DNA of 64,000 bases from Enterobacter cloacae complex sp. ECNIH7. Its GTDB lineage: Bacteria > Pseudomonadota > Gammaproteobacteria > Enterobacterales > Enterobacteriaceae. The stretch covers positions 2,480,001-2,544,000 of the forward strand of contig NZ_CP017990.1 of assembly GCF_002208095.1 (NCBI RefSeq). The letters run 5' to 3'. This document shows positions 4,546 through 38,010 of the stretch, one piece after another; the first letter of the stretch is position 1; every line of letters starts with the position of its first letter. Made by a program: the position numbers and the translations under genes. The notes under the pieces were generated by a model that saw nothing but the letters and a program-made list of their open reading frames with translations, made no database searches and was not told the DNA's origin.

Positions 4546-5739
4546 CTACGCCACCTTCGGTGACTCGCACCACGCCTTCACGCTCATCCCACGCAAAATC
4601 ATCAGCCACGCAATGACGATGGCGACCATCATGATGACAAATAACGACCAGTGCGGCAGGTTGGTCAGAATAATACCGGTGATCATCGGGTTTGCCGCCG
4701 CGCCGAGCCAGCCCAGCGCCTGAGCGGAGAAATAGCTTGCCTTCATTCCCGGCGGGGCAATGTTGTCGATCAGCATATATTCGCCCGGTGCATAGATAAT
4801 CTCACCCAGGGTAAATATGGCGGCAGCGATGCCCCAGTAAACCAGGTTTTCTCCAGAGACCATAAATCCCCCCAGCCCCACGATAAAAAACAGGGTGGCG
4901 AGGGTCATCAGCGGGCGAATATTGCTGGCAGAGATCCTGCGGCCCAGCGCGTACTGCAGCGTCACCACCACGGCGGCGTTGACGGGAAGTACCACGGCAA
5001 CGACCTTCTGCGCAAAATCGCTATCGGCATGGGCGGCCAGAACATACTGCGAAATGCAGCTGGCGAACGATCCGCCCACGTAAGAGGCGAGCAGGCCAGA
5101 GAGCGTATACCAGAACAGCGCGCGGTCTTTCAGCAGCACCGACGGCTGCCAGGGCATCTTCTCCTCTGCGGTATCGAGCGCAACGCTTTTCTGCACGAAG
5201 AAATGGATGAATCCGAGCGGCAGCGCGGCGCAGAAGGCCGCCAGCCAGAACGGCAGCTGCAGGCTGTACATCACCAGCAGGGTGCCAATCGGCGGCCCGA
5301 TCGTCCAGCCAATGTTCAGAAAGCTGTAGTTAAGCGAGAAGACGCGCGCTTTCTGGCTTGCGGTAAGCACGTCGGAGAACCAGGCCTTCAGCACTGTCGA
5401 AAAGACGGAATAGGCGCAGTTGATCAGCGCAAAGAACAGCACCACCAGCGAGACGTTATCGACCAGCGGGATCGCGACAAATCCGGCGATGAAGGCCACG
5501 ATCGCGATCAGCATGTAGCGCTTTTTATCAAACTTATCGGCAAGAATGCCAAATCCCAGGCTGAACACTACGCCGATAGTCAGCGCAATCGTCAGGGCAT
5601 AACCAATATTCTCAACGCTCATGCTGTAGACGCGCGTGAGATAAATGGTCATAAACGGCAGCGTTGCCCCCCGACCAATGGTTAATAACAATGACGATGC
5701 CAGCAGCGCTGCGGTTGAGCGCCTGAGAGATGGTTTCAT
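4546..5739 (-). CDS. ydeE: MFS efflux transporter YdeE
   Basis: Major facilitator superfamily exporter, 397 residues with about 12 hydrophobic segments. It aligns from end to end with E. coli YdeE, which has been linked to export of dipeptides and small toxic compounds. Diagnostic stretches are LLLTIGRGATLPFMTIYL near the N-terminus, the inter-helix motif GILADKFDKKRYM (about residue 63) and LGEIIYAPGEYMLIDNIAPP. It is divergent from eamA, with a 193-bp gap holding both promoters. As in E. coli, it sits beside eamA and the mar operon. The C-terminal segment is somewhat divergent. Confidence 0.93.
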   Translation of the reverse strand: MKPSLRRSTAALLASSLLLTIGRGATLPFMTIYLTRVYSMSVENIGYALTIALTIGVVFSLGFGILADKFDKKRYMLIAIVAFIAGFVAIPLVDNVSLVVLFFALINCAYSVFSTVLKAWFSDVLTASQKARVFSLNYSFLNIGWTIGPPIGTLLVMYSLQLPFWLAAFCAALPLGFIHFFVQKSVALDTAEEKMPWQPSVLLKDRALFWYTLSGLLASYVGGSFASCISQYVLAAHADSDFAQKVVAVVLPVNAAVVVTLQYALGRRISASNIRPLMTLATLFFIVGLGGFMVSGENLVYWGIAAAIFTLGEIIYAPGEYMLIDNIAPPGMKASYFSAQALGWLGAAANPMITGIILTNLPHWSLFVIMMVAIVIAWLMILRGMSVKAWCESPKVA

Positions 5740-21091: not shown

Positions 21092-21209
21092 TTATTTTGT
21101 ACAACTACACCGTGGATTGATCAAAACAGGGTTTCTGGTCGTTAAGTTTTGATAAGTTATCGTACCAATCTTATCGGGCTGTATGACTAATCATAAAAGG
21201 AACCCTCTT

Positions 21210-22659
21210 GTGAACACGCTCAACCGTCGTGATTTTCCCGGTGCTCAATACCCGGAACGCATTATTCAGTTTGGTGAAGGCAACTTCCTGCGTGCGTTTG
21301 TCGACTGGCAAATTGACCTGCTAAATGAACATACCGATCTTAACGCCGGTGTGGTTATCGTTCGTCCTATTCAGAGCGACTTCCCGCCGTCGCTGAACAC
21401 TCAGGATGGTCTCTATACCACTATCATTCGCGGCCTGAACGGGCAGGGCGAAGCGATGAGCGAGAGCCGTCTAATCCGCTCGGTTAACCGGGATCGACGT
21501 CTACGGCCAGTATGATGCGTTCCTGAAACTGGCGCACAATCCGGATATGCGTTTTGTTTTCTCAAACACCACCGAAGCGGGTATCAGCTACCACGCGGGG
21601 GACAGATTCGACGATGCCCCTGCGGTTAGCTACCCGGCGAAGCTGACGCGGCTGCTGTTTGAGCGCTTTAGCCACTTCAACGGTGCAGCGGATAAAGGCT
21701 GGATCATCATTCCGTGCGAGTTGATTGACTACAACGGCGCTGCGCTGCATGAACTTGTCCTGCGCTATGCCCGGGAGTGGGCCCTGCCTGCGGCCTTTAT
21801 TCAGTGGCTAAATGACGCCAACAGCTTCTGCTCTACGCTGGTCGACCGTATCGTGACCGGTTACCCGCGTGACGAAGCGGCCACGATGGAAGCCGAGCTG
21901 GGTTATCACGATGGGTTCCTGGACACGGCTGAACATTTCTATCTGTTCGTTATCCAGGGGCCGGCATCCCTTGCACAGGAACTCCGTCTGGATAAGTATC
22001 CGTTAAACGTGCTGATTGTCGACGACATCAGGCCCTACAAAGAGCGCAAAGTCGCTATCCTGAACGGCGCACACACCGCGCTGGTGCCGGTGGCATTCCA
22101 GGCCGGGCTGGATACGGTGGGCGAGGCGATGAATGATGCAGAGATCTGCGCATTCGTCGAAAAAGCGATTTATCAGGAGATTATTCCTGTCCTCGATCTG
22201 CCGCGTGACGAGCTGGAATCTTTCGCCAGCGCGGTAACAGGGCGTTTTCGCAACCCTTACATCAGACACCAGCTGCTTTCCATCGCGCTCAACGGCATGA
22301 CCAAATACCGCACCCGCATCCTGCCGCAGCTGCTGGCAGGGCAGAAGGCAAGCGGACAACTGCCCGCGCGTCTGACGTTCGCGCTGGCTGCATTGATAGC
22401 GTTTTATCGCGGGGAACGTAACGGGGAAAACTACCCGGTACAGGATGATGCATTCTGGCTGGAACGTTATCAGCAGCTGTGGGCACAGCATCGCGACCAG
22501 CAGTTGAGCACCCGTGAGCTGGTGCAGTCCGTATTGAGCGTGAGCGAGCACTGGGAACAGGATCTCACGCAGGTCTCCGGACTTGTCGACCAGGTCACCC
22601 TGAATCTTGACGCCATTCTCCTGAAGGGAATGCGCGCAGCGGTGAAACCCCTGTGCTAA
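21210..22659 (+). pseudogene. uxaB: Tagaturonate reductase (altronate oxidoreductase) UxaB, frameshifted
   Basis: NAD-dependent tagaturonate reductase of galacturonate breakdown, interrupted near 21492. The first 95 or so codons, from the GTG at 21210 (aaaagg 9 nt upstream), end at SVNR; the rest resumes in another frame as [17 protein letters not shown] and runs to the normal C-terminus VKPLC. At the break the DNA reads cgggatcgac where an intact gene would read cgg ga(a/g) atc gac, so two bases are missing. Restoring them gives 1452 nt and exactly 483 residues, the length of E. coli UxaB. All other regions look conserved, so the lesion is recent or a sequencing error. Confidence 0.9.
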
Positions 22660-25352: not shown

Positions 25353-25370
25353 GGCGACAACGCCTGTGTT

Positions 25371-25440
25371 TGTATCACACTGTATCTGCGTCCCGGATAC
25401 ATACACAGGCTTGCAATAAACCCGCTTTCGCACATATCCG
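25371..25440 (+). promoter_or_regulatory. Shared promoter block upstream of the alpha/beta hydrolase
   Basis: TGTATC occurs at 25371-25376 and 25381-25386 (10-bp period), with the inverted GATACA at 25396-25401. This is followed by aaacccgcttt (25418-25428) and cacatatcc (25431-25439). The same order of elements, TGTATC, GATACA, aaacctgcttt and cacatatcc, occurs upstream of the CcdA-thioredoxin gene at 28585-28643, although spacings differ by a few bases. The likely reader is the response regulator encoded between the two genes; this is inference. Confidence 0.6.
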
Positions 25441-25497
25441 CTATACATTGCCGTGTTGTTATATCCCCGTGAATTGTACTCAACCGGAGATACCAAC

Positions 25498-26493
25498 ATG
25501 TTTAGCAAACTCGCATATTCAACTCTCGCACTGACCGTTTCCCTTGGCACCGTGATGTCCTGTCAGGCCGAAGTCACCGGCACAACTTTCGCGGCAGCCT
25601 TCGATCGTCCGCAGCAAATTAACGCCGGCGATTTGAACGTCGGTTATGTCGACATCGGCCCGAAAAACGGCCAGCCGGTTATTTTACTGCACGGCTGGCC
25701 GTACGATATTCACAGCTACGCCGACGTTGCGCCCGCGCTGGCGGCAAAAGGCTATCGGGTGATTGTGCCTTCTCTGCGCGGCTACGGTACCACGCGCTTC
25801 CTGTCAGCCAAAACGCCGCGCAACGGCCAGCCTTCAGCCATGGCGAAAGATATTGTGAACCTGATGGATGCCCTGAATATTAAGCAGGCGGTATTTGCAG
25901 GATATGACTGGGGCGCTCGTACGGCGGATATCGTTGCGGCGCTGTGGCCAGAGCGCGTTAAGTCACTGGTGTCGGTGAGCGGGTATCTCATCAGCAGCCA
26001 GCAGATTGGCAAACAGCCGCTGCCGCCAAAAGCGGAGCAGCAGTGGTGGTATCAGTTCTATTTCGCCACCGCGCGCGGTGCTGAGGGCTATGCCAAAAAC
26101 ACGCATGACTTCGCGCGCTTAATCTGGTCTCAGGCCTCGCCTGACTGGAAATTTAGCGATGCTGTTTTTAACGCCAGCGCCAAATCCCTCGATAACCCGG
26201 ATCACGTCGCCGTGACGCTCAGCAACTATCGCTGGCGTTTAGGGCTGGAAAAAGGCGAGCGCAAATACGACAGCTACGAGCAAAAACTCGCTACGCTGCC
26301 GAATATAACCGTTCCAACGATTACCATCGAAGGCGGAAACAACGGTGCGCCGCATCCTGCACCTCAGGCCTACGCGGGTAAATTTACCGGTAAATATGAG
26401 CACCGCACCTTCGGGGCAACCGTGGGGCACAATCCGCCTCAGGAAGATCCGCAGGATTTCGTCAAGGCCGTCGTTGACGCGGACAAGCTCTGA
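25498..26493 (+). CDS. Exported epoxide-hydrolase-like alpha/beta hydrolase
   Basis: Alpha/beta hydrolase of 331 residues with a signal peptide (residues 1 to about 24, ending SCQA), so it is probably periplasmic. The start at 25498 has GGAGA 7 nt upstream. Motifs: oxyanion HGWP (65-68), nucleophile elbow GYDWGA with Asp137 instead of Ser, as in epoxide hydrolases and haloalkane dehalogenases, a cap region, and the late catalytic His in VGHNPPQEDP. Substrate unknown. It is followed by a two-component system and shares a promoter block with the redox gene at 28709, so it is probably part of one envelope response. Confidence 0.85.
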   Translation: MFSKLAYSTLALTVSLGTVMSCQAEVTGTTFAAAFDRPQQINAGDLNVGYVDIGPKNGQPVILLHGWPYDIHSYADVAPALAAKGYRVIVPSLRGYGTTRFLSAKTPRNGQPSAMAKDIVNLMDALNIKQAVFAGYDWGARTADIVAALWPERVKSLVSVSGYLISSQQIGKQPLPPKAEQQWWYQFYFATARGAEGYAKNTHDFARLIWSQASPDWKFSDAVFNASAKSLDNPDHVAVTLSNYRWRLGLEKGERKYDSYEQKLATLPNITVPTITIEGGNNGAPHPAPQAYAGKFTGKYEHRTFGATVGHNPPQEDPQDFVKAVVDADKL

Positions 26494-26537
26494 AATGTGC
26501 TATTTTCAGTACGTTAACCTTCGGTCTGGAGATTTCG

Positions 26538-27278
26538 GTGGAGCATATTGATCATATTCTTGTCGTCGATGACGACAGGGATATTCGTGAACTGATTGTC
26601 GATTATCTCGGTAAGTCTGGCTATCGCGCGACGGGCGCGGCCAACGGTAAAGAGATGCGCGTCGTGCTGGATAAACAGCATATCGACCTGGTGGTGCTGG
26701 ATGTCATGATGCCCGGCGACGACGGCCTTACGCTGTGTCGAGAGCTACGCGTCGGGAAATATAAAGATCTGCCCATCCTGATGCTGACGGCCCGCAATGA
26801 GGAGACGGACAGGATCCTGGGTCTGGAGATGGGCGCGGATGACTACGTGGTGAAGCCGTTTGTCGCCCGCGAACTGCTGGCGCGTATCAAAGCGATTTTA
26901 CGACGTTTTCGCACGATGCCGCCCAATCTGCAGGTGACAGAAGCCGGGCGGCTGGTGATGTTCGGTGAATGGCAGCTCGATACCGTTGCACGTCACTTAA
27001 TCGATCCGGAAGGGGTGATCGTCGTGCTCAGCGGGGCGGAGTATCGCCTGCTGCGCGTTTTCCTTGACCACCCTCAGCGGGTGCTGACCCGCGATCAGCT
27101 GCTCAACCTCACGCAGGGGCGCGACGCCGAGCTGTTTGAACGTTCTATCGACCTGCTGGTTAGCCGGGTCCGTCAGCGCCTGAACGAAGATGCCCGCACG
27201 CCCGCCTATATCAAGACCGTGCGCAGCGAAGGCTACGTTTTTACGATGCCGGTCACCATCAAAGAGGCTAACGAATGA
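26538..27278 (+). CDS. OmpR-family response regulator
   Basis: Two-component response regulator, 246 residues. The receiver domain (about 5-118) has the acidic pocket DDD near residue 11, phosphoacceptor Asp in LVVLDVMMPGDDG and Lys in VVKPF. The C-terminal OmpR/PhoB winged helix (about 145-240) ends TVRSEGYVFTMPV. GTG start. It overlaps the sensor kinase gene by 4 nt. It is close to OmpR in layout but is not OmpR, and which known pair it is orthologous to could not be decided. It likely controls the flanking hydrolase and CcdA-like genes. Confidence 0.92.
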   Translation: MEHIDHILVVDDDRDIRELIVDYLGKSGYRATGAANGKEMRVVLDKQHIDLVVLDVMMPGDDGLTLCRELRVGKYKDLPILMLTARNEETDRILGLEMGADDYVVKPFVARELLARIKAILRRFRTMPPNLQVTEAGRLVMFGEWQLDTVARHLIDPEGVIVVLSGAEYRLLRVFLDHPQRVLTRDQLLNLTQGRDAELFERSIDLLVSRVRQRLNEDARTPAYIKTVRSEGYVFTMPVTIKEANE

Positions 27279-28573
27279 GGTTCTGGCCACGCTCGCTGCT
27301 TGCCCGCTTGCTGCTCGTCGTGCTGTCCGGTCTGCTGCTGGCCAACGCCCTGAGCCTGACGCTGGTCATGATTGAACGAATGCACAGCGCCAGAACGGTG
27401 ATGCTCGGTAATCTGGAAAACGACGTCGCAACCAGCGTCGCCATTTTAGACCGCTTACCGGCCAGCGAACGCGCGGCCTGGCTTCCGCGCCTCGAACGGG
27501 GTAACTATCGCTATATTCTGGGGCCGGGAGAGCCCGGCAACGCGCCGACGGATAGGCGTTCGCAGGACGCCATCCGAACCTTAAAAGCGACGCTCGCGAC
27601 ACAGTACCCGCTCAGCTTCACCGCCGTCCCTGGTGCCGTTTCACACATCCAGGCGCATCTGACGCTGCGCGACGGCGCGCCGCTGACCATTGACCTGATC
27701 CCGCGCATGCCGCCGGTCGCCAGCTGGTTGCCCGTTGTGCTAATTCTGCAGCTGCTGCTGCTGGCTGCGTGCGCCTGGATTGCCGTGCGGCAGGTGGTGC
27801 GGCCTTTTTCACAATTTACCCGCGCGGTGGATTCGCTGGATCCGGCGGCCAGCACGCCAATGACGGAGAAAGGGCCGCTTGAGGTGCAGCGGGCAGCGCA
27901 TGCCTTCAACGCCATGCAGGCGCGCATTCAGTCTTATCTCCGGGAACGCGCGCAGATCCTGGCCTCGATTTCTCACGATCTCCAGACGCCCATTACCCGC
28001 ATGAAGCTGCGCGTCGAAATGGCAGGGGAACCAGAACTTCGCGACAAGCTTCTGAACGACCTTGATAACATGACGCGTCTGGTGCGGGAGGGGATTGCGT
28101 ATGCCCGGTCATCAGAATCGCTGGAAGAGACCCCGCTGAAGCTGGAGCTAAACGCCTGGGTCAACAGCATCGCCTGCGATTATCAGGACATCGGTAAAAA
28201 CGTGCAGTTTCAGGCAAGCGATGCCCGCCTGCCAATCGTTACGCGTCCCCAGGCGCTCCGCCGGGTGATGACTAACCTGCTGGATAACGCGCTCAAATTC
28301 GGCGAACGCGCTGTAATAACCATCGATGATTCGTCTGACCGGGAGGTGGTTATCCACATCACGGACGACGGGCCGGGGATCCCTGAAGCCGAGCTTGAGG
28401 CGGTTTTACAGCCGTTCTACCGGGTGGAAACATCGCGCAACCGCGATACCGGCGGAACAGGACTCGGACTGGCGATTGCCGCGCAGCTCACCGCTCAGCT
28501 TGAAGGAAAGCTCAACCTGACGAACCTGGCCGGAGGCGGACTGGATGTCTCCATTACGCTACCGCGCCGTTAA
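27275..28573 (+). CDS. Membrane sensor histidine kinase
   Basis: Sensor kinase partner of the preceding regulator, 432 residues. TM1 is about residues 10-32, a periplasmic loop of roughly 115 residues follows, TM2 is about 148-170 (WLPVVLILQLLLLAACAWIAV), then HAMP. The H-box is ASISHDLQTPITRMKLRVEM, the N-box NLLDNALKF and the G-boxes DDGPGIPEAE and GGTGLGLAIA. All catalytic motifs are intact. The periplasmic loop has no cysteines or obvious metal motif, so the signal is not evident. ATG overlaps the regulator stop by 4 nt. Confidence 0.92.
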   Translation: MRFWPRSLLARLLLVVLSGLLLANALSLTLVMIERMHSARTVMLGNLENDVATSVAILDRLPASERAAWLPRLERGNYRYILGPGEPGNAPTDRRSQDAIRTLKATLATQYPLSFTAVPGAVSHIQAHLTLRDGAPLTIDLIPRMPPVASWLPVVLILQLLLLAACAWIAVRQVVRPFSQFTRAVDSLDPAASTPMTEKGPLEVQRAAHAFNAMQARIQSYLRERAQILASISHDLQTPITRMKLRVEMAGEPELRDKLLNDLDNMTRLVREGIAYARSSESLEETPLKLELNAWVNSIACDYQDIGKNVQFQASDARLPIVTRPQALRRVMTNLLDNALKFGERAVITIDDSSDREVVIHITDDGPGIPEAELEAVLQPFYRVETSRNRDTGGTGLGLAIAAQLTAQLEGKLNLTNLAGGGLDVSITLPRR

Positions 28574-28584
28574 TTGTACGGCTT

Positions 28585-28643
28585 TGTATCTCCCGGCCTG
28601 GGTGATACAGAGTCAGACAAAACCTGCTTTTTTACACATATCC
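28585..28643 (+). promoter_or_regulatory. Shared promoter block upstream of the CcdA-thioredoxin gene
   Basis: TGTATC (28585-28590), GATACA (28604-28609), aaacctgcttt (28620-28630) and cacatatcc repeat the elements found at 25371-25440. Half-site spacing is 13 bp here against 9 or 19 bp there. The pair of matches in two promoters flanking one two-component system points to a common operator and promoter. Confidence 0.6.
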
Positions 28644-28708
28644 TGAACACATCCGCACGATGAAATAGCCTCACTGCAGCGTCGCAGGACTTGTATTGTG
28701 AGGTGTCT

Positions 28709-29899
28709 ATGTTTCTGGTAATCGCTTTTCTGGGCGGGATGATAAGCCTGCTCAGCCCATGTACTCTCCCGGTTATTCCGCTCCTGTTCGCCGGTTTTCA
28801 GGGACAGCGACGACATATTCTGGCCCTGCTCGCGGGGATGATCGTGATGTTCACCCTGGTGGCGATGGCCGTCACCGTCGCCAGCGAGTGGATCGCAGAG
28901 GCAACCATCGTCGGGCGCTGGATCGCTCTAGTCATTCTGGACACGGCCGCGCTGGCCTTAATTTTTCCGTCATTCGCCCAGCGTATTGCGGGTCCGGCCG
29001 TCAGCGCGGGAAATGTCCTGAACACCCGAAGCGGGCAAACGCGCGGTATGGTATCGGCTTTTCTGGCCGGGCTCGCGGTGGGGCTGCTCTGGTCTCCCTG
29101 CGCCGGTCCCATACTGGGCGCCATTTTCAGCATTAATATCGCGGGCCATTCGGCCATTACGACGGGCGCGCTGCTGGCGGCCTACGGCAGCGGATGCGCG
29201 CTGATGCTGAGCCTGCTCGTTTTCGGCGGCCGCACGCTGATTGCGCCGTTAAGAGCAAAATCGGCGCTGATGGAAAGGCTGCGGCAGGGGGCTGGCGTGG
29301 CGATGCTGGCGGCAGTCGTATTTAACGCGACAGGAATGACTTCGCTTCTGAAAGGAGCAAATAGCGTTGCGGATCGTCTGGAGACAACACTTTTGACGCT
29401 GGCGAAACCCACAGCCGCGCCGGTGAAGCTCCGGCCGGTCGTGATGACAGAGCCCAGCAGCCAGCTGCCTTCGTTAAGCGGGGGAACAGGGTGGATAAAC
29501 GGTGACCCTGTCACGTCTGAATCTCTGCGAGGGAAGGTGGTATTAATTGATTTCTGGACGTGGGATTGCATTAACTGCCAGCATACGCTTCCCCATGTGA
29601 AAGACTGGGCCACGAAGTATCAGTCTCAGGGGCTGGTCGTGATTGGGGTTCACACGCCGGAATATCCCTGGGAAAAGCCGCTTTCGTCGGTAAAAACCGC
29701 GGTGGAGAAATGGCAGCTGCCGTATCGGGTGGTGACGGATAACAATTATCAAATCTGGAACGCTTTCGGGAACCAGTACTGGCCAGCGCATTACTATTTC
29801 GATGCCAAAGGCCAGCTACGCTATACCGCCTTTGGCGAAGGAGATTATGCGCAGCAGGAAAAGATCATTCAGCAGCTGCTGAAAGAAGCCAGGTCATAA
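28709..29899 (+). CDS. CcdA-thioredoxin fusion (DipZ-like) thiol-disulfide protein
   Basis: Membrane redox protein of 396 residues. The N-terminal CcdA/DsbD-type domain (about 1-210, roughly six helices) has the paired membrane cysteines in SPCTLPVIPLL (Cys18) and SPCAGPILGA (Cys131), which pass electrons across the membrane. The C-terminal TlpA/thioredoxin-like domain (about 255-396) has the active site CINC (Cys287, Cys290) and should face the periplasm. It resembles DipZ proteins and is not DsbD, which has another N-terminal domain. The ATG at 28709 has GAGG 5 nt upstream. Probably delivers reducing power under control of the adjacent two-component system. Confidence 0.88.
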   Translation: MFLVIAFLGGMISLLSPCTLPVIPLLFAGFQGQRRHILALLAGMIVMFTLVAMAVTVASEWIAEATIVGRWIALVILDTAALALIFPSFAQRIAGPAVSAGNVLNTRSGQTRGMVSAFLAGLAVGLLWSPCAGPILGAIFSINIAGHSAITTGALLAAYGSGCALMLSLLVFGGRTLIAPLRAKSALMERLRQGAGVAMLAAVVFNATGMTSLLKGANSVADRLETTLLTLAKPTAAPVKLRPVVMTEPSSQLPSLSGGTGWINGDPVTSESLRGKVVLIDFWTWDCINCQHTLPHVKDWATKYQSQGLVVIGVHTPEYPWEKPLSSVKTAVEKWQLPYRVVTDNNYQIWNAFGNQYWPAHYYFDAKGQLRYTAFGEGDYAQQEKIIQQLLKEARS

Positions 29900-30662: not shown

Positions 30663-31045
30663 TTTGATTCTCCGTTTAGCATGCTTCTGCAAGAGTAGCA
30701 CAGCAGTAAGAACAGAGATAATAGGGAAAAAATAAGAAAAAGGGAATATTACCCCTTAAATTCTTAAGGGGCAATACTTTAATTGTAATTATTTTATAAT
30801 TATCGTTTTTTAATATTTTATCGGCTAAGTGCTTCTTACGCTCTGTACCCGAAACTATAAATATTAGATAATCATGAATGGATATATCCCTGGTGTTTCG
30901 TAGGTCTTTGACCTCCTGGCCACTGAGTTTCACGAGGACTTAGTGGCCGGGTACTTTTCAAGTATAAGGAATACCATGCACAATGAAAGCTGTCCTAAAA
31001 GACAGGGGATAATAGTTTCAGGTGTTATTATCAGGAATAAGAGCA
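30663..31045. other. AT-rich intergenic region tam-luxI
   Basis: About 380 bp, clearly richer in A and T than its surroundings. It holds a hairpin CCCCTTAA-ATTC-TTAAGGGG (about 30754-30773), an inverted repeat GGCCACT/AGTGGCC (30918-30924 and 30942-30948) with a long loop, and the lux box at 30988-31007. An 85-codon minus-strand frame (30676-30933) has no recognisable product and is not called as a gene. Confidence 0.6.
30988..31007. promoter_or_regulatory. lux box upstream of luxI homologue
   Basis: AGCTGTCCTAAAAGACAGGG contains the dyad CTGT-N8-ACAG, the core of LuxR-family operators, here extended to CTGTC/GACAG. It lies 39 bp before the synthase ATG. The convergent luxR product is the obvious reader. 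Whether it activates or, as in EsaR-type proteins, represses without signal cannot be told. Confidence 0.8.
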
Positions 31046-31684
31046 ATGAATTCTGTTATTGAGTTTTTTTTGCATGATTACGATGATTTACCGTCAGCAT
31101 TAGCCCGCGAACTCTTCCGACTCAGGAGAAAAACCTTTCGGGACCGACTCGACTGGAAAGTTGAATGCGTTGAAGATATGGAAAAGGATCAATTTGACAA
31201 CCCAAACACGACATACTTGTTGGGTATGTATGAGGGAGAGTTGTTATGTGGCGCGCGATTCATTAATTCGACGCATCCGACAATGATAAGTGAAATTTTT
31301 CACAATTATTTTGCCGAAACCATTATTTTACCGACAGATGTTCCCTGCTGTGAAATTAGCCGTTTATTTTTAGATAAAGAAAGACGAGACTCCTCAAGTC
31401 TGCAGGGCGTGCCCGCCAGTAAGGCATTGTTTCTTGCGATGAATATTTATTGCATTAAGAATAAATATCATGGAATGTACGCAGTAGTCAGTCGTGGTAT
31501 GTATGCCATTTTTCGCCATGCAAACTGGAAAGTTGAAGTTATTCAACGCGGCTTGTCTGAAAAAGGGGAGGTTATTTACTATATATTTATGCCTGCCAGT
31601 ATCAACATTATTGAAGACATTATTAGCAAAGATAAATCCAGTCACTGGCTTCGCGAAATGCTGGAGCATTTACGCCACTTATAA
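31046..31684 (+). CDS. Acyl-homoserine-lactone synthase (LuxI family)
   Basis: Quorum-sensing signal synthase that makes N-acyl-homoserine lactone from SAM and acyl-ACP. The ATG at 31046 has AGGAA 9 nt upstream and gives 212 residues. Invariant LuxI-family positions are present: Arg25 (RLRRKTF region), Phe31, Trp37, Asp48, Asp51, Arg71-Phe72 and the pair Glu103/Arg106 in CEISRLF. It is convergent with the luxR homologue 14 bp away, the esaI/esaR-type arrangement known from Pantoea and Enterobacter. AT-rich DNA suggests acquisition. The acyl chain cannot be predicted. Confidence 0.93.
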   Translation: MNSVIEFFLHDYDDLPSALARELFRLRRKTFRDRLDWKVECVEDMEKDQFDNPNTTYLLGMYEGELLCGARFINSTHPTMISEIFHNYFAETIILPTDVPCCEISRLFLDKERRDSSSLQGVPASKALFLAMNIYCIKNKYHGMYAVVSRGMYAIFRHANWKVEVIQRGLSEKGEVIYYIFMPASINIIEDIISKDKSSHWLREMLEHLRHL

Positions 31685-31698
31685 CCAGTGGCTGAGGC

Positions 31699-32391
31699 TC
31701 AGTCGTCCAGTAATCGTAGTTCTGTTCCAAGTTTAATTGCGTGTCTGGCATTATTCACACCGAGTTTTTTCATTACATTCCCCATATGGAATTTAACGGT
31801 GCGTTCAGCAATAGACAAAATAACAGAAATTTCTGCGTAGGTTTTCCCGGCGCTGACCCATTTAAGGATTTGTCGCTCACGTGGCGACAGAAAAACATTC
31901 TTTTTCTGTTGATGCTGGCTATAGAGATTGAGTGTCTTCTGATGCAGTTGAACAAGGAAGCTTAGAAATTGTGGCCGATATTTTTCTATATCAATACCAG
32001 AATGCTTAGGACTGATGACGGATAAGACGACAAGATTATTAAGATAGTCATGCAGAGGGAACGTCTGCCCCTGGTAGATATCATACTGGACGCTTTCGTT
32101 GAAAATGCGCGTCAGGTTATAACCATCAGACAGGATGACATCACTTTCCCAGAAAAAATCTTCAACACAGCGCAAAGCCCGAATGATAACAGGGTCAATG
32201 AACTGATATTTCCTGTCGAGGTAGATATCAAACCACTCGGGGCTGTTATTGATTATCCGCATCTGTGAAGGATCTTTCTTGTTCATAATGGCGTAGGCGA
32301 AGACGATCCCTTTGAAATCCTCAAAAAACGCGTCCAGCTCACTCTGAATTAGCGTATTGATCGCTATGTCGTTGTAATATGTATCCTTCAC
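31699..32391 (-). CDS. LuxR-family quorum-sensing regulator (EsaR-like)
   Basis: Acyl-homoserine-lactone receptor and transcription factor. The ligand domain (about 20-150) has the family WFDIYLDRKYQFIDPVI (Trp, Tyr and DP of the signal pocket) and HDYLNNLVVLSV. The C-terminal GerE helix-turn-helix is LSPRERQILKWVSAGKTYAEISVILSIAERTVKFHMGNVMKKLGV, positions about 170-214. The GTG at 32391 gives 230 residues, with AGGAGG 12 nt upstream; a TTG at 32427 would add 12 residues but lies at the putative promoter. Best resemblance is to EsaR/SmaR-type regulators. Confidence 0.9.
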   Translation of the reverse strand: MKDTYYNDIAINTLIQSELDAFFEDFKGIVFAYAIMNKKDPSQMRIINNSPEWFDIYLDRKYQFIDPVIIRALRCVEDFFWESDVILSDGYNLTRIFNESVQYDIYQGQTFPLHDYLNNLVVLSVISPKHSGIDIEKYRPQFLSFLVQLHQKTLNLYSQHQQKKNVFLSPRERQILKWVSAGKTYAEISVILSIAERTVKFHMGNVMKKLGVNNARHAIKLGTELRLLDD

Positions 32392-32693
32392 GTGAGTTGC
32401 TTGCCTCCTGTTCGAGTGGAGGAGCAAGTATAATATGCTTCGTTATCTGTAGCGAGTCGCATTTTAATCCAGCCAACAGATAAGACAGGCTACCTCAAGT
32501 GGTAGCCTGGCCAACGTGTGGCATTTCTAATGGTAAATGCAGATGACTCGGCGAATTTTAGAAGATTTTGTCAAATCCCGAAATAGTTCACTAAATATAG
32601 TAGGCTGCAAAATTTAGGAGGTTTTCCGCTTTACATTTGAGTAATGGACAAGCGTACCGACCCAGATTCAAATTCAGGATTTTAGCCCGCGGT
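32392..32693. other. Intergenic region upstream of the luxR homologue
   Basis: About 300 bp between luxR and the NudK-like gene. Apart from the luxR promoter (TATTAT/TATACT-like bases near 32428-32438 on the minus strand), it holds a perfect 9-bp stem CAGGCTACC/GGTAGCCTG with a 6-nt loop (32486-32509) that lacks a T-run. No ORF, tRNA or known RNA is recognised. Confidence 0.55.
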
Positions 32694-36606: not shown

Positions 36607-38010
36607 TCAGCGGGCTCTTTTACCAAAAATGTCCTCTGAACGTGACTGAAGCTGTTTGAGTGCTTCGAGCATGTCATCATTATCCAGTGAGCGCTGGGAT
36701 TTCTTCCCTTCCTGCTTTGGCCGTCGTCGGGAAGGGCCATCTCCAGCGGGAATTGACTGAGAGCGCGTGTTATCCCGCTTGCTCTGCACCAGACTGATAA
36801 ACTCCAGGGTTCGGCCAAGACGCTTGTTATCGACAATCGCGCCCTGGTCGATTTCTGACAGTCGGTCGTAGGTAGAGTAGGGAAGTAGCGTACCGTTCAG
36901 GCGCAGCTCTTTTCTGCCATCAGGATAGTGATACACATCGATATATTTACCTATTGCACGGCGACTCAGTTCGCTGTCTTCAATCAGGTACAACATTTTA
37001 TCATATTGTATCGTCAACGATTTTGAGACTTTACGTTTTTCACGAACAGTGAAAATAAGCCCCAGGTCCTCATCATGTTCTACAGCACGGTGTACGTCAA
37101 AATCATGTCGCGGTACTTTGCCAAAACGGCGGTTATAGTCAGCCATATAGGCCTCAGCGAAGTCATTTGCAGCCTCCATTGAACAAATGCCCTGTAACCG
37201 CAGCTCTTTGACCAGACGATCCTGTAAAGTGAGGTGAGCTCGTTCTACACGCCCTTTGGCGGGACTGGTTTCTGCACAGATAGTCTGGATGTTCAGTTCA
37301 TGCATGGCTCGCCCAAACTGAGTATGCCCGTCTCCGCCTGTGGCGTGTTTATTGTTAACACGAAAAACACCGGCTTTATCGCTGTACAGTGCCAGCGGTT
37401 TACCATGCTTATCGATATAGCGCCGCGTGGCTTCGAAGTAAGAAAACGTGGACTCCGATTTAACAAACAACAGTTCCATCAGTTTGCTGGTTGCATCATC
37501 AACATAGACCAGCGCGGTGCAGGCCGGGCCACGGCCTTCAAACCAGTCGTGATCACAGCCATCTATTTGTATCAGCTCACCAGTACACGGACGCCGGTAC
37601 CGTGGTTGAGGGATCCTTGCGGCACGTTGTTTACGGGGAACCCATAAGCCAGCCCGCACCATGATGCGCCGGACAGTTTCTTTGCCAAGAAACAGTCCGT
37701 GGAGTTCTTCGAGCTTTTCACGCGCCAGAGTCGGACCGAAATCAGCATAACGCGTCTTGATCAGTTCCAGAGCCTGATCTGCGAGCCCGGGTGGCAACTG
37801 GCGGTTACCACGCATGCCACATCGTCTGCTGGCCATACCAAGCGGTCCGCCTTCACGGTAACGGGCAAGAAGTCTGCGGCATTGCCTGTCGCTGATACCG
37901 AGGTGCTCGGCCGCACGGCGCGTTGTGATGCGACGTTCAATGACGTCCTGTATAATCTTGATCCGGTTGATCTCTTTCAAAGTAAACACTCCTGAGCTTT
38001 CTGCGCTCAT
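36607..38010 (-). CDS. ISNCY/IS1202-type DDE transposase
   Basis: Transposase of 467 residues. N-terminal helix-turn-helix region about 10-60 (RITTRRAAEHLGISDRQCRRLL), a winged second domain, then the RNase H-like integrase core with the DDE residues in IQIDGCDHDWFEGRG, LYSDKAGVFRVN and SPAKGRVERAH. The C-terminal tail is basic and low in complexity (SRRRPKQEGKKSQRS). The ATG follows GGGAGG with a 6-nt spacer. The gene is intact, so the element may still be active. Confidence 0.93.
   Translation of the reverse strand: MSAESSGVFTLKEINRIKIIQDVIERRITTRRAAEHLGISDRQCRRLLARYREGGPLGMASRRCGMRGNRQLPPGLADQALELIKTRYADFGPTLAREKLEELHGLFLGKETVRRIMVRAGLWVPRKQRAARIPQPRYRRPCTGELIQIDGCDHDWFEGRGPACTALVYVDDATSKLMELLFVKSESTFSYFEATRRYIDKHGKPLALYSDKAGVFRVNNKHATGGDGHTQFGRAMHELNIQTICAETSPAKGRVERAHLTLQDRLVKELRLQGICSMEAANDFAEAYMADYNRRFGKVPRHDFDVHRAVEHDEDLGLIFTVREKRKVSKSLTIQYDKMLYLIEDSELSRRAIGKYIDVYHYPDGRKELRLNGTLLPYSTYDRLSEIDQGAIVDNKRLGRTLEFISLVQSKRDNTRSQSIPAGDGPSRRRPKQEGKKSQRSLDNDDMLEALKQLQSRSEDIFGKRAR

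Follow-up and report, generated by a model that had tools for sequence, protein, structure and literature searches.

HprRS, CpxRA and BaeRS are OmpR-class two-component pairs that act in envelope or oxidative stress. DipZ, which we take to be a Mycobacterium tuberculosis protein, and its long relatives carry a CcdA domain fused to a CxxC thioredoxin domain. In Pseudomonas aeruginosa, the two-component pair DsbRS controls envelope thiol-disulfide genes, as described in passages of PMC9233671 and PMC10141476, and passages of PMC8244358 place the epoxide hydrolase Cif under its own epoxide-responsive regulator, CifR. Four genes lie side by side in Enterobacter cloacae complex sp. ECNIH7, within the 64,000-nucleotide stretch that was analysed (contig NZ_CP017990.1, positions 2,480,001 to 2,544,000; hereafter the window). 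The genes encode an epoxide-hydrolase-like protein (HYD), an OmpR-type response regulator (RR), an EnvZ-class sensor kinase (HK) and a CcdA-thioredoxin fusion (TRX). Sequence comparison indicates that RR and HK very probably run an envelope regulon whose promoters share a tandem site. Unlike that of DsbRS, its predicted output consists of hydrolases and the fusion protein; no dsbDEG operon was seen, and no dsb gene is present among the classified genes of the block or near the set in the loci of Pantoea and Phyllobacterium that were annotated. No published description of the system was found in searches of open-licence papers.

The shared site has the form TTGTATC-N4-TGTATC and, in most transcription units, precedes the leading gene by approximately 130 bases. 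Among the loci compared first, HYD promoters carry TTTGTATCACACTGTATC or a close variant. In the ECNIH7 genome, the 16-base core occurs exactly only twice: before HYD, and at C1:3641962 before a distant pair of DUF6130 and hydrolase genes. The sequence-only reading of this block began at 25371, which falls inside the site before HYD, and did not mention it. When up to two mismatches are allowed, the window contains five matches (0.73 expected), three in the block and two in a repeated element. The genome also has 17 sites with one mismatch, compared with six for a reversed control, and no clear target for them is found among the open reading frames (ORFs) listed at L073 and L075. Ten of the 17 are pairs of TTTATCATATTGTATC and TATATCGATGTGTATC that resemble the repeated element. 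In that element (36930-37012), TATATCGATGTGTATC and TTTATCATATTGTATC lie in opposite orientation, 67 bases apart, and the arrangement occurs five times in the genome (three times on C1 and twice on C2); such pairs are probably part of a mobile element. A motif scan of viral contigs returned 52 stretches, which were taken for chance.

Across genomes, the site accompanies the kinase. Among 40 genomes of the genus, the exact core is present in all 30 with HK and in two of the ten without it, G015 and G241 (P = 5.9e-7), and a reversed control pattern has one match in the same genomes. The 59 exact sites comprise 28 at the HK module, 23 at DUF6130 genes and eight elsewhere. One of these eight precedes a second hydrolase (L167); another belongs to a genome without HK (G241), in which, as judged by eye, a stretch resembling the DUF6130 promoter is left without the gene. 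Among 198 genomes of the family, the exact 17-mer is found in 13 of the 17 with HK and in six of the 181 without (P = 7e-13). It occurs at 20 sites, 14 of them at the module, compared with three for the reversed control, and in the HK-containing genomes without an exact copy (G041, G056, G148 and G207) the sites deviate at one or two positions.

As far as transcription units can be predicted, the site is found before whichever gene comes first in the unit. At up to two mismatches, it is found in 31 of 37 HYD rows; DUF6130 leads in five of the other six, and the sixth is G050. The corresponding counts are 7 of 8 for DUF6130 and 29 of 38 for TRX. In three site-less TRX rows (L021, G138 and G207), TRX follows a second hydrolase that is itself preceded by a site with one or two mismatches. 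In two more (G041 and L023) the site is further upstream, L023 having two exact sites 67 bases apart on the TRX side, and in two from Pelomonas it precedes the gene in front of TRX (for L052, as seen in the RR row). The other two are G050, with no site, and L036, where HYD, RR and HK are lost. This last locus, from Enterobacter quasihormaechei, keeps TRX with no site in the preceding 220 bases, and the other three genes are unmatched in it. We also chose 27 promoters, six of which had already been seen when the pattern was defined: 22 have a site within two mismatches, compared with about 3 of 1620 shuffles, and without those six the count is 16 of 21. The heritable site that HYD and TRX have in common is an argument for a single regulator of the two. 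The proposal that the regulator acts on its neighbours thus stood up to the in silico comparison, with control itself predicted from sequence.

The genes recur together in other genomes, on which the sequence-only reading had staked its grouping. A search with TRX fetched 27 loci from named genomes, of which 24 have all four genes (in one, L050, HK and TRX are in pieces), two from Pelomonas have RR, HK and TRX, and one has TRX alone. In searches of the family, which score the first candidates per genome so that misses are possible, HK is found in 17 of the 198 genomes, HYD in 18 and both in 16 (Fisher P = 1.8e-20); HYD thus occurs in 16 of 17 genomes with HK versus 2 of 181 without. TRX of the 396-amino-acid type is present in 14 genomes, all with HK (P = 6.7e-19); long DipZ relatives, found in eight, were counted apart. 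DUF6130 occurs in seven genomes, again all with HK. Among the 17, the short TRX is missing in three and HYD in one, and in two more (G207 and G231) HYD lies elsewhere in the genome. The proposed module is therefore a real unit, correctly grouped, but its composition varies and its borders were drawn too narrowly, the distant operon lying outside the window. RR and HK, rather than an invariable set of four genes, are the core of the system, and the distribution of the pair is patchy. A near-match search found no DNA match to E. coli genomes.

Chance adjacency of the four genes is ruled out, since they co-occur and their flanks change: the tam and GNAT neighbours have no match around the block in L030, L044, L045 and L047-L049 (L030 ends at a contig edge). 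On a Pseudomonas antarctica plasmid (L023, 2916-4519), HK matches in three pieces and may be broken.

The distant site ends 113 bases before the DUF6130 gene, which is followed by a gene for a 247-amino-acid hydrolase with a signal-like start. In Pantoea agglomerans, DUF6130 and the hydrolase are found within the cluster, in the order DUF6130-HYD-RR-HK-hydrolase-TRX. Thus, the pattern alone led to genes that are tied to the cluster by synteny elsewhere. The DUF6130 fold is predicted to be an Ig/FN3-like sandwich, and its structure matches, all with E > 0.001, indicate no function.

Relatives are also found far beyond the family. A tblastn search with HK (E <= 1e-60) matched 148 plasmid records, mostly from Sinorhizobium, Rhizobium and Ensifer. 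In Phyllobacterium zundukense, MsrA and TRX genes are divergent from RR-HK-Ohr-HYD. A region of about 10 kb contains RR, HK, HYD and TRX in Sinorhizobium terangae and in S. meliloti strain LMB1. The proteins of these three are 72-73% (RR), 54-55% (HK), 62-67% (HYD) and 42-43% (TRX) identical to those of the window. In Phyllobacterium, TRX and Ohr each have a site with one or two mismatches in front of them; in both Sinorhizobium species, such a site precedes HYD and none precedes TRX. Downstream of HYD, S. terangae has a gene for an EHN-type epoxide hydrolase that is preceded by a two-mismatch site, and in genome G200 a gene of this type lies between DUF6130 and HYD. Glyoxalase-fold genes are also among the company of the set. 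On a Pantoea vagans plasmid (L201, 4541-7725), an RR-HK pair of a second type with a one-mismatch site at 5160 adjoins DUF305, YncE-family and BhsA/McbA-like genes.

By alignment, HYD has most of the sequence marks of alpha/beta epoxide hydrolases that are given in passages of PMC8244358. The HGXP motif (H65-G66-W67-P68), an Asp nucleophile (D137) and a His base (H311) are invariant in 11 of 11 aligned rows. D137 lies in the motif GYDWG, and its counterpart in bifunctional epoxide hydrolase 2 is the Asp of GHDWG; an Asp nucleophile had already been recognised from the sequence alone. Two putative lid tyrosines are predicted, Y185 in 10 of 11 rows, matched by the Tyr of YQLYF in the alignment with epoxide hydrolase 2, and Y244 in all 11, which aligns with a Tyr of EHN-type enzymes; both positions presumably are catalytic. 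In contrast, Cif has a His-Tyr pair, and its regulator CifR is a TetR-like repressor. The nearest solved structure is 5BOV, titled 'Putative epoxide hydrolase protein' (E 1.3e-165), and the homolog in a Klebsiella pneumoniae locus (L022) is 73% identical. A longer ORF from a GTG at 25453 is less likely than the ATG start at 25498. HYD is probably exported, to judge from a signal peptide recognised by eye; twin-arginine-like leaders are likewise visible in relatives from L025, L159 and L160.

The Trx part of TRX matches DipZ (2HYX, E 3.2e-44). The paired CcdA cysteines (C18 and C131) and the CINC motif at 287-290, both called correctly by the sequence-only reading, supply four cysteines (C18, C131, C287 and C290) of the DipZ type that are invariant in 9 of 9 rows. 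Long DipZ proteins have a C-terminal domain, whereas TRX ends after the Trx domain (396 amino acids, compared with a 594-amino-acid ORF for the long type in L025). The nearest named relatives of TRX are in Enterobacter, Lelliottia and Leclercia.

RR and HK belong to the same regulator and kinase class as OmpR-EnvZ and RisA-RisS. Their best NCBIfam scores are for OmpR and EnvZ, at 243.3 of the 331 bits and 186.1 of the 415 bits set as equivalog cut-offs. They also fall short of CpxR (154.7 of 341), CpxA (145.7 of 486), BaeR (172.3 of 380) and BaeS (NF012163; 107 of 500), and the passages of PMC7769827 concern another, CpxR-like regulator. The best 120 of 6027 relatives of HK carry generic labels (ATP-binding protein, sensor histidine kinase, EnvZ, SasA and similar). 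A model of HK residues 1-180 (predicted local distance difference test 81.6, predicted template modelling score 0.65) suggests a weakly RisS-like sensor fold: Foldseek ranks 1-6 are RisS periplasmic domains, with E values of 0.015 or worse. The second membrane helix has a cysteine, C166, that is conserved in all of 13 sequences.

The gene set, its co-occurrence and the shared site are established by computation. On balance, it is probable that RR and HK are a dedicated envelope-stress system that runs the hydrolase, TRX and DUF6130 genes through the tandem sites, with an oxidant or electrophile as the favoured signal. By analogy with their families, HK would detect a signal in the periplasm and phosphorylate RR. 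Phosphorylated RR would then bind the tandem TGTATC half-sites some 130 bases before its targets; RR as the binder is the simplest reading of the shared presence and loss of the sites. It may activate HYD-RR-HK, TRX and the distant DUF6130-hydrolase operon, in which case the system would feed itself. Because of their spacing (a gap of 44 bases between HYD and RR, an overlap of 4 bases between RR and HK, and a gap of 135 bases before TRX), HYD, RR and HK appear to form one operon and TRX a separate unit. As in known CcdA and DipZ proteins, the CcdA part of TRX would take electrons from thioredoxin in the cytoplasm and hand them to the CINC domain in the periplasm. A reactive or damaged periplasmic compound, most likely an epoxide or a lipid-oxidation product, may be the substrate of HYD and the second hydrolase. 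The least certain part is the signal, for which organic peroxides, oxidised lipids or related electrophiles are favoured; an oxidant or electrophile is plausible because of the company of the genes, namely Ohr, MsrA, glyoxalase-fold genes and two kinds of epoxide hydrolase. More tentatively, and with some doubt, RR-HK could be dedicated to sensing extracytoplasmic electrophiles or oxidised lipids. It would then be conserved, along with a DNA code of its own, from Rhizobiales to Enterobacter, and would deploy exported epoxide hydrolases and imported reducing power as one periplasmic response to electrophiles.

Several observations weigh against these proposals. The TRX site in Enterobacter is imperfect, with two mismatches (there are none before TRX in the Klebsiella locus L022 and in G040, locus L166). 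Five of the 27 chosen promoters have no site within two mismatches: those of HYD, TRX and DUF6130 in G050, where HYD has an exact site further upstream, and those of TRX in S. terangae and S. meliloti. At E <= 1e-70, in a search that scored the first few candidates per genome, HK is found in 3 of 369 genomes of the class, ECNIH7 included; in one of the three (G523), a TRX-like stretch, RR and HK lie in a row. The charge-relay acid of HYD was not located, since E278 is nearly invariant and position 280 varies in the 11 rows. A genome search for a periplasmic Msr or MsrAB partner of TRX gave one MsrA of 213 amino acids without an evident signal, so no such partner is known. In Pantoea vagans, a close RR-HK pair (76% and 55%) comes with a one-mismatch site, and the 13 kb seen contain neither HYD nor TRX; the RR-HK family may have other regulons that use the same DNA code. 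Finally, a genome in which HK was not detected (G015, 86% complete) keeps DUF6130 and its site. This genome would also fit a site that belongs to another regulator, with the four genes merely travelling together, as would the six family genomes that have the exact 17-mer without HK, in no case beside these genes. However, the site tracks HK in the genus, it is absent before TRX in L036 where HYD, RR and HK are missing, and it is found together with RR-HK in Alphaproteobacteria, in Pelomonas and on a Pseudomonas plasmid, which makes another regulator very improbable.

The main rival for the signal, although an unlikely one, is periplasmic copper or another soft metal acting on the same regulon. 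TRX would then repair metal-made disulfides, as proposed for DsbRS, which passages of PMC9233671 and PMC10141476 describe as a copper-responsive pair controlling disulfide genes, and DUF6130 would bind metal, perhaps through H93, H95, H123 and H134, which are invariant in 20 rows. MbnB/TglH/ChrH-family, DUF2063 and DoxX-family genes after TRX in G207, and DUF305 beside the P. vagans pair, point in the same direction. However, the families identified in the window block and the distal operon include no known copper family, the window HK lacks cysteine in its periplasmic part, and Ohr, MsrA and epoxide hydrolases are not metal genes. The kinship with OmpR-EnvZ and the RisS-like sensor model would instead suit a general acid, osmotic or envelope-integrity system, with hydrolases and TRX as housekeeping outputs. 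This is improbable, because the family scores lie far below the cut-offs, the structural matches are weak, and the targets seen are few and enzymatic. The targets of EnvZ-OmpR and RisS-RisA differ from those found here. In G207, the genes after TRX lie on the same strand (L158, 546-4204).

ORFs and Pfam matches bear out the earlier view that the four genes are intact on one strand (Table 1). A scan for sigma-70-type promoters gave no matches, compared with 2.1 expected.

Table 1. Genes and putative regulatory sites of the block, in window coordinates
Feature	Position	Strand	Details
HYD, epoxide-hydrolase-like alpha/beta hydrolase, probably exported	25498..26493	+	331 amino acids, ATG start; Pfam Abhydrolase
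RR, OmpR-type response regulator	26538..27278	+	246 amino acids, GTG start; Pfam Response_reg + Trans_reg_C
HK, EnvZ-class sensor kinase	27275..28573	+	432 amino acids; Pfam HAMP/HisKA/HATPase_c
TRX, CcdA-like membrane domain fused to DipZ-type thioredoxin domain	28709..29899	+	396 amino acids; Pfam DsbD_TM + AhpC-TSA
Putative regulatory site A, TTGTATCACACTGTATC, tandem TGTATC with 10-base period	25370..25386	+	exact match; ends 111 bases before HYD ATG
Putative regulatory site B, TTGTACGGCTTTGTATC	28574..28590	+	2 mismatches; ends 118 bases before TRX ATG
Further match beside site B, opposite strand	28604..28620	-	2 mismatches; pattern scan

The block is adjoined by two convergent genes (31022-32427) that we take to be LuxI-like and LuxR-like; the former is matched in two of the 27 genome loci (L026 and L027). 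At 21183-22659, a presumably tagaturonate-reductase-like gene is split over two ORFs in different frames, which may reflect a broken gene or a sequencing error.

The candidate binding site, the list of candidate targets beyond the immediate neighbourhood and the relatives in laboratory-friendly soil bacteria make this predicted envelope response directly testable. If the signal is an electrophile, RR-HK would be a two-component system for a task that, to our knowledge, is mainly served by cytoplasmic one-component regulators such as CifR. That distantly related bacteria of soil and plants have the same set points to a so far undescribed response to cell-envelope damage.

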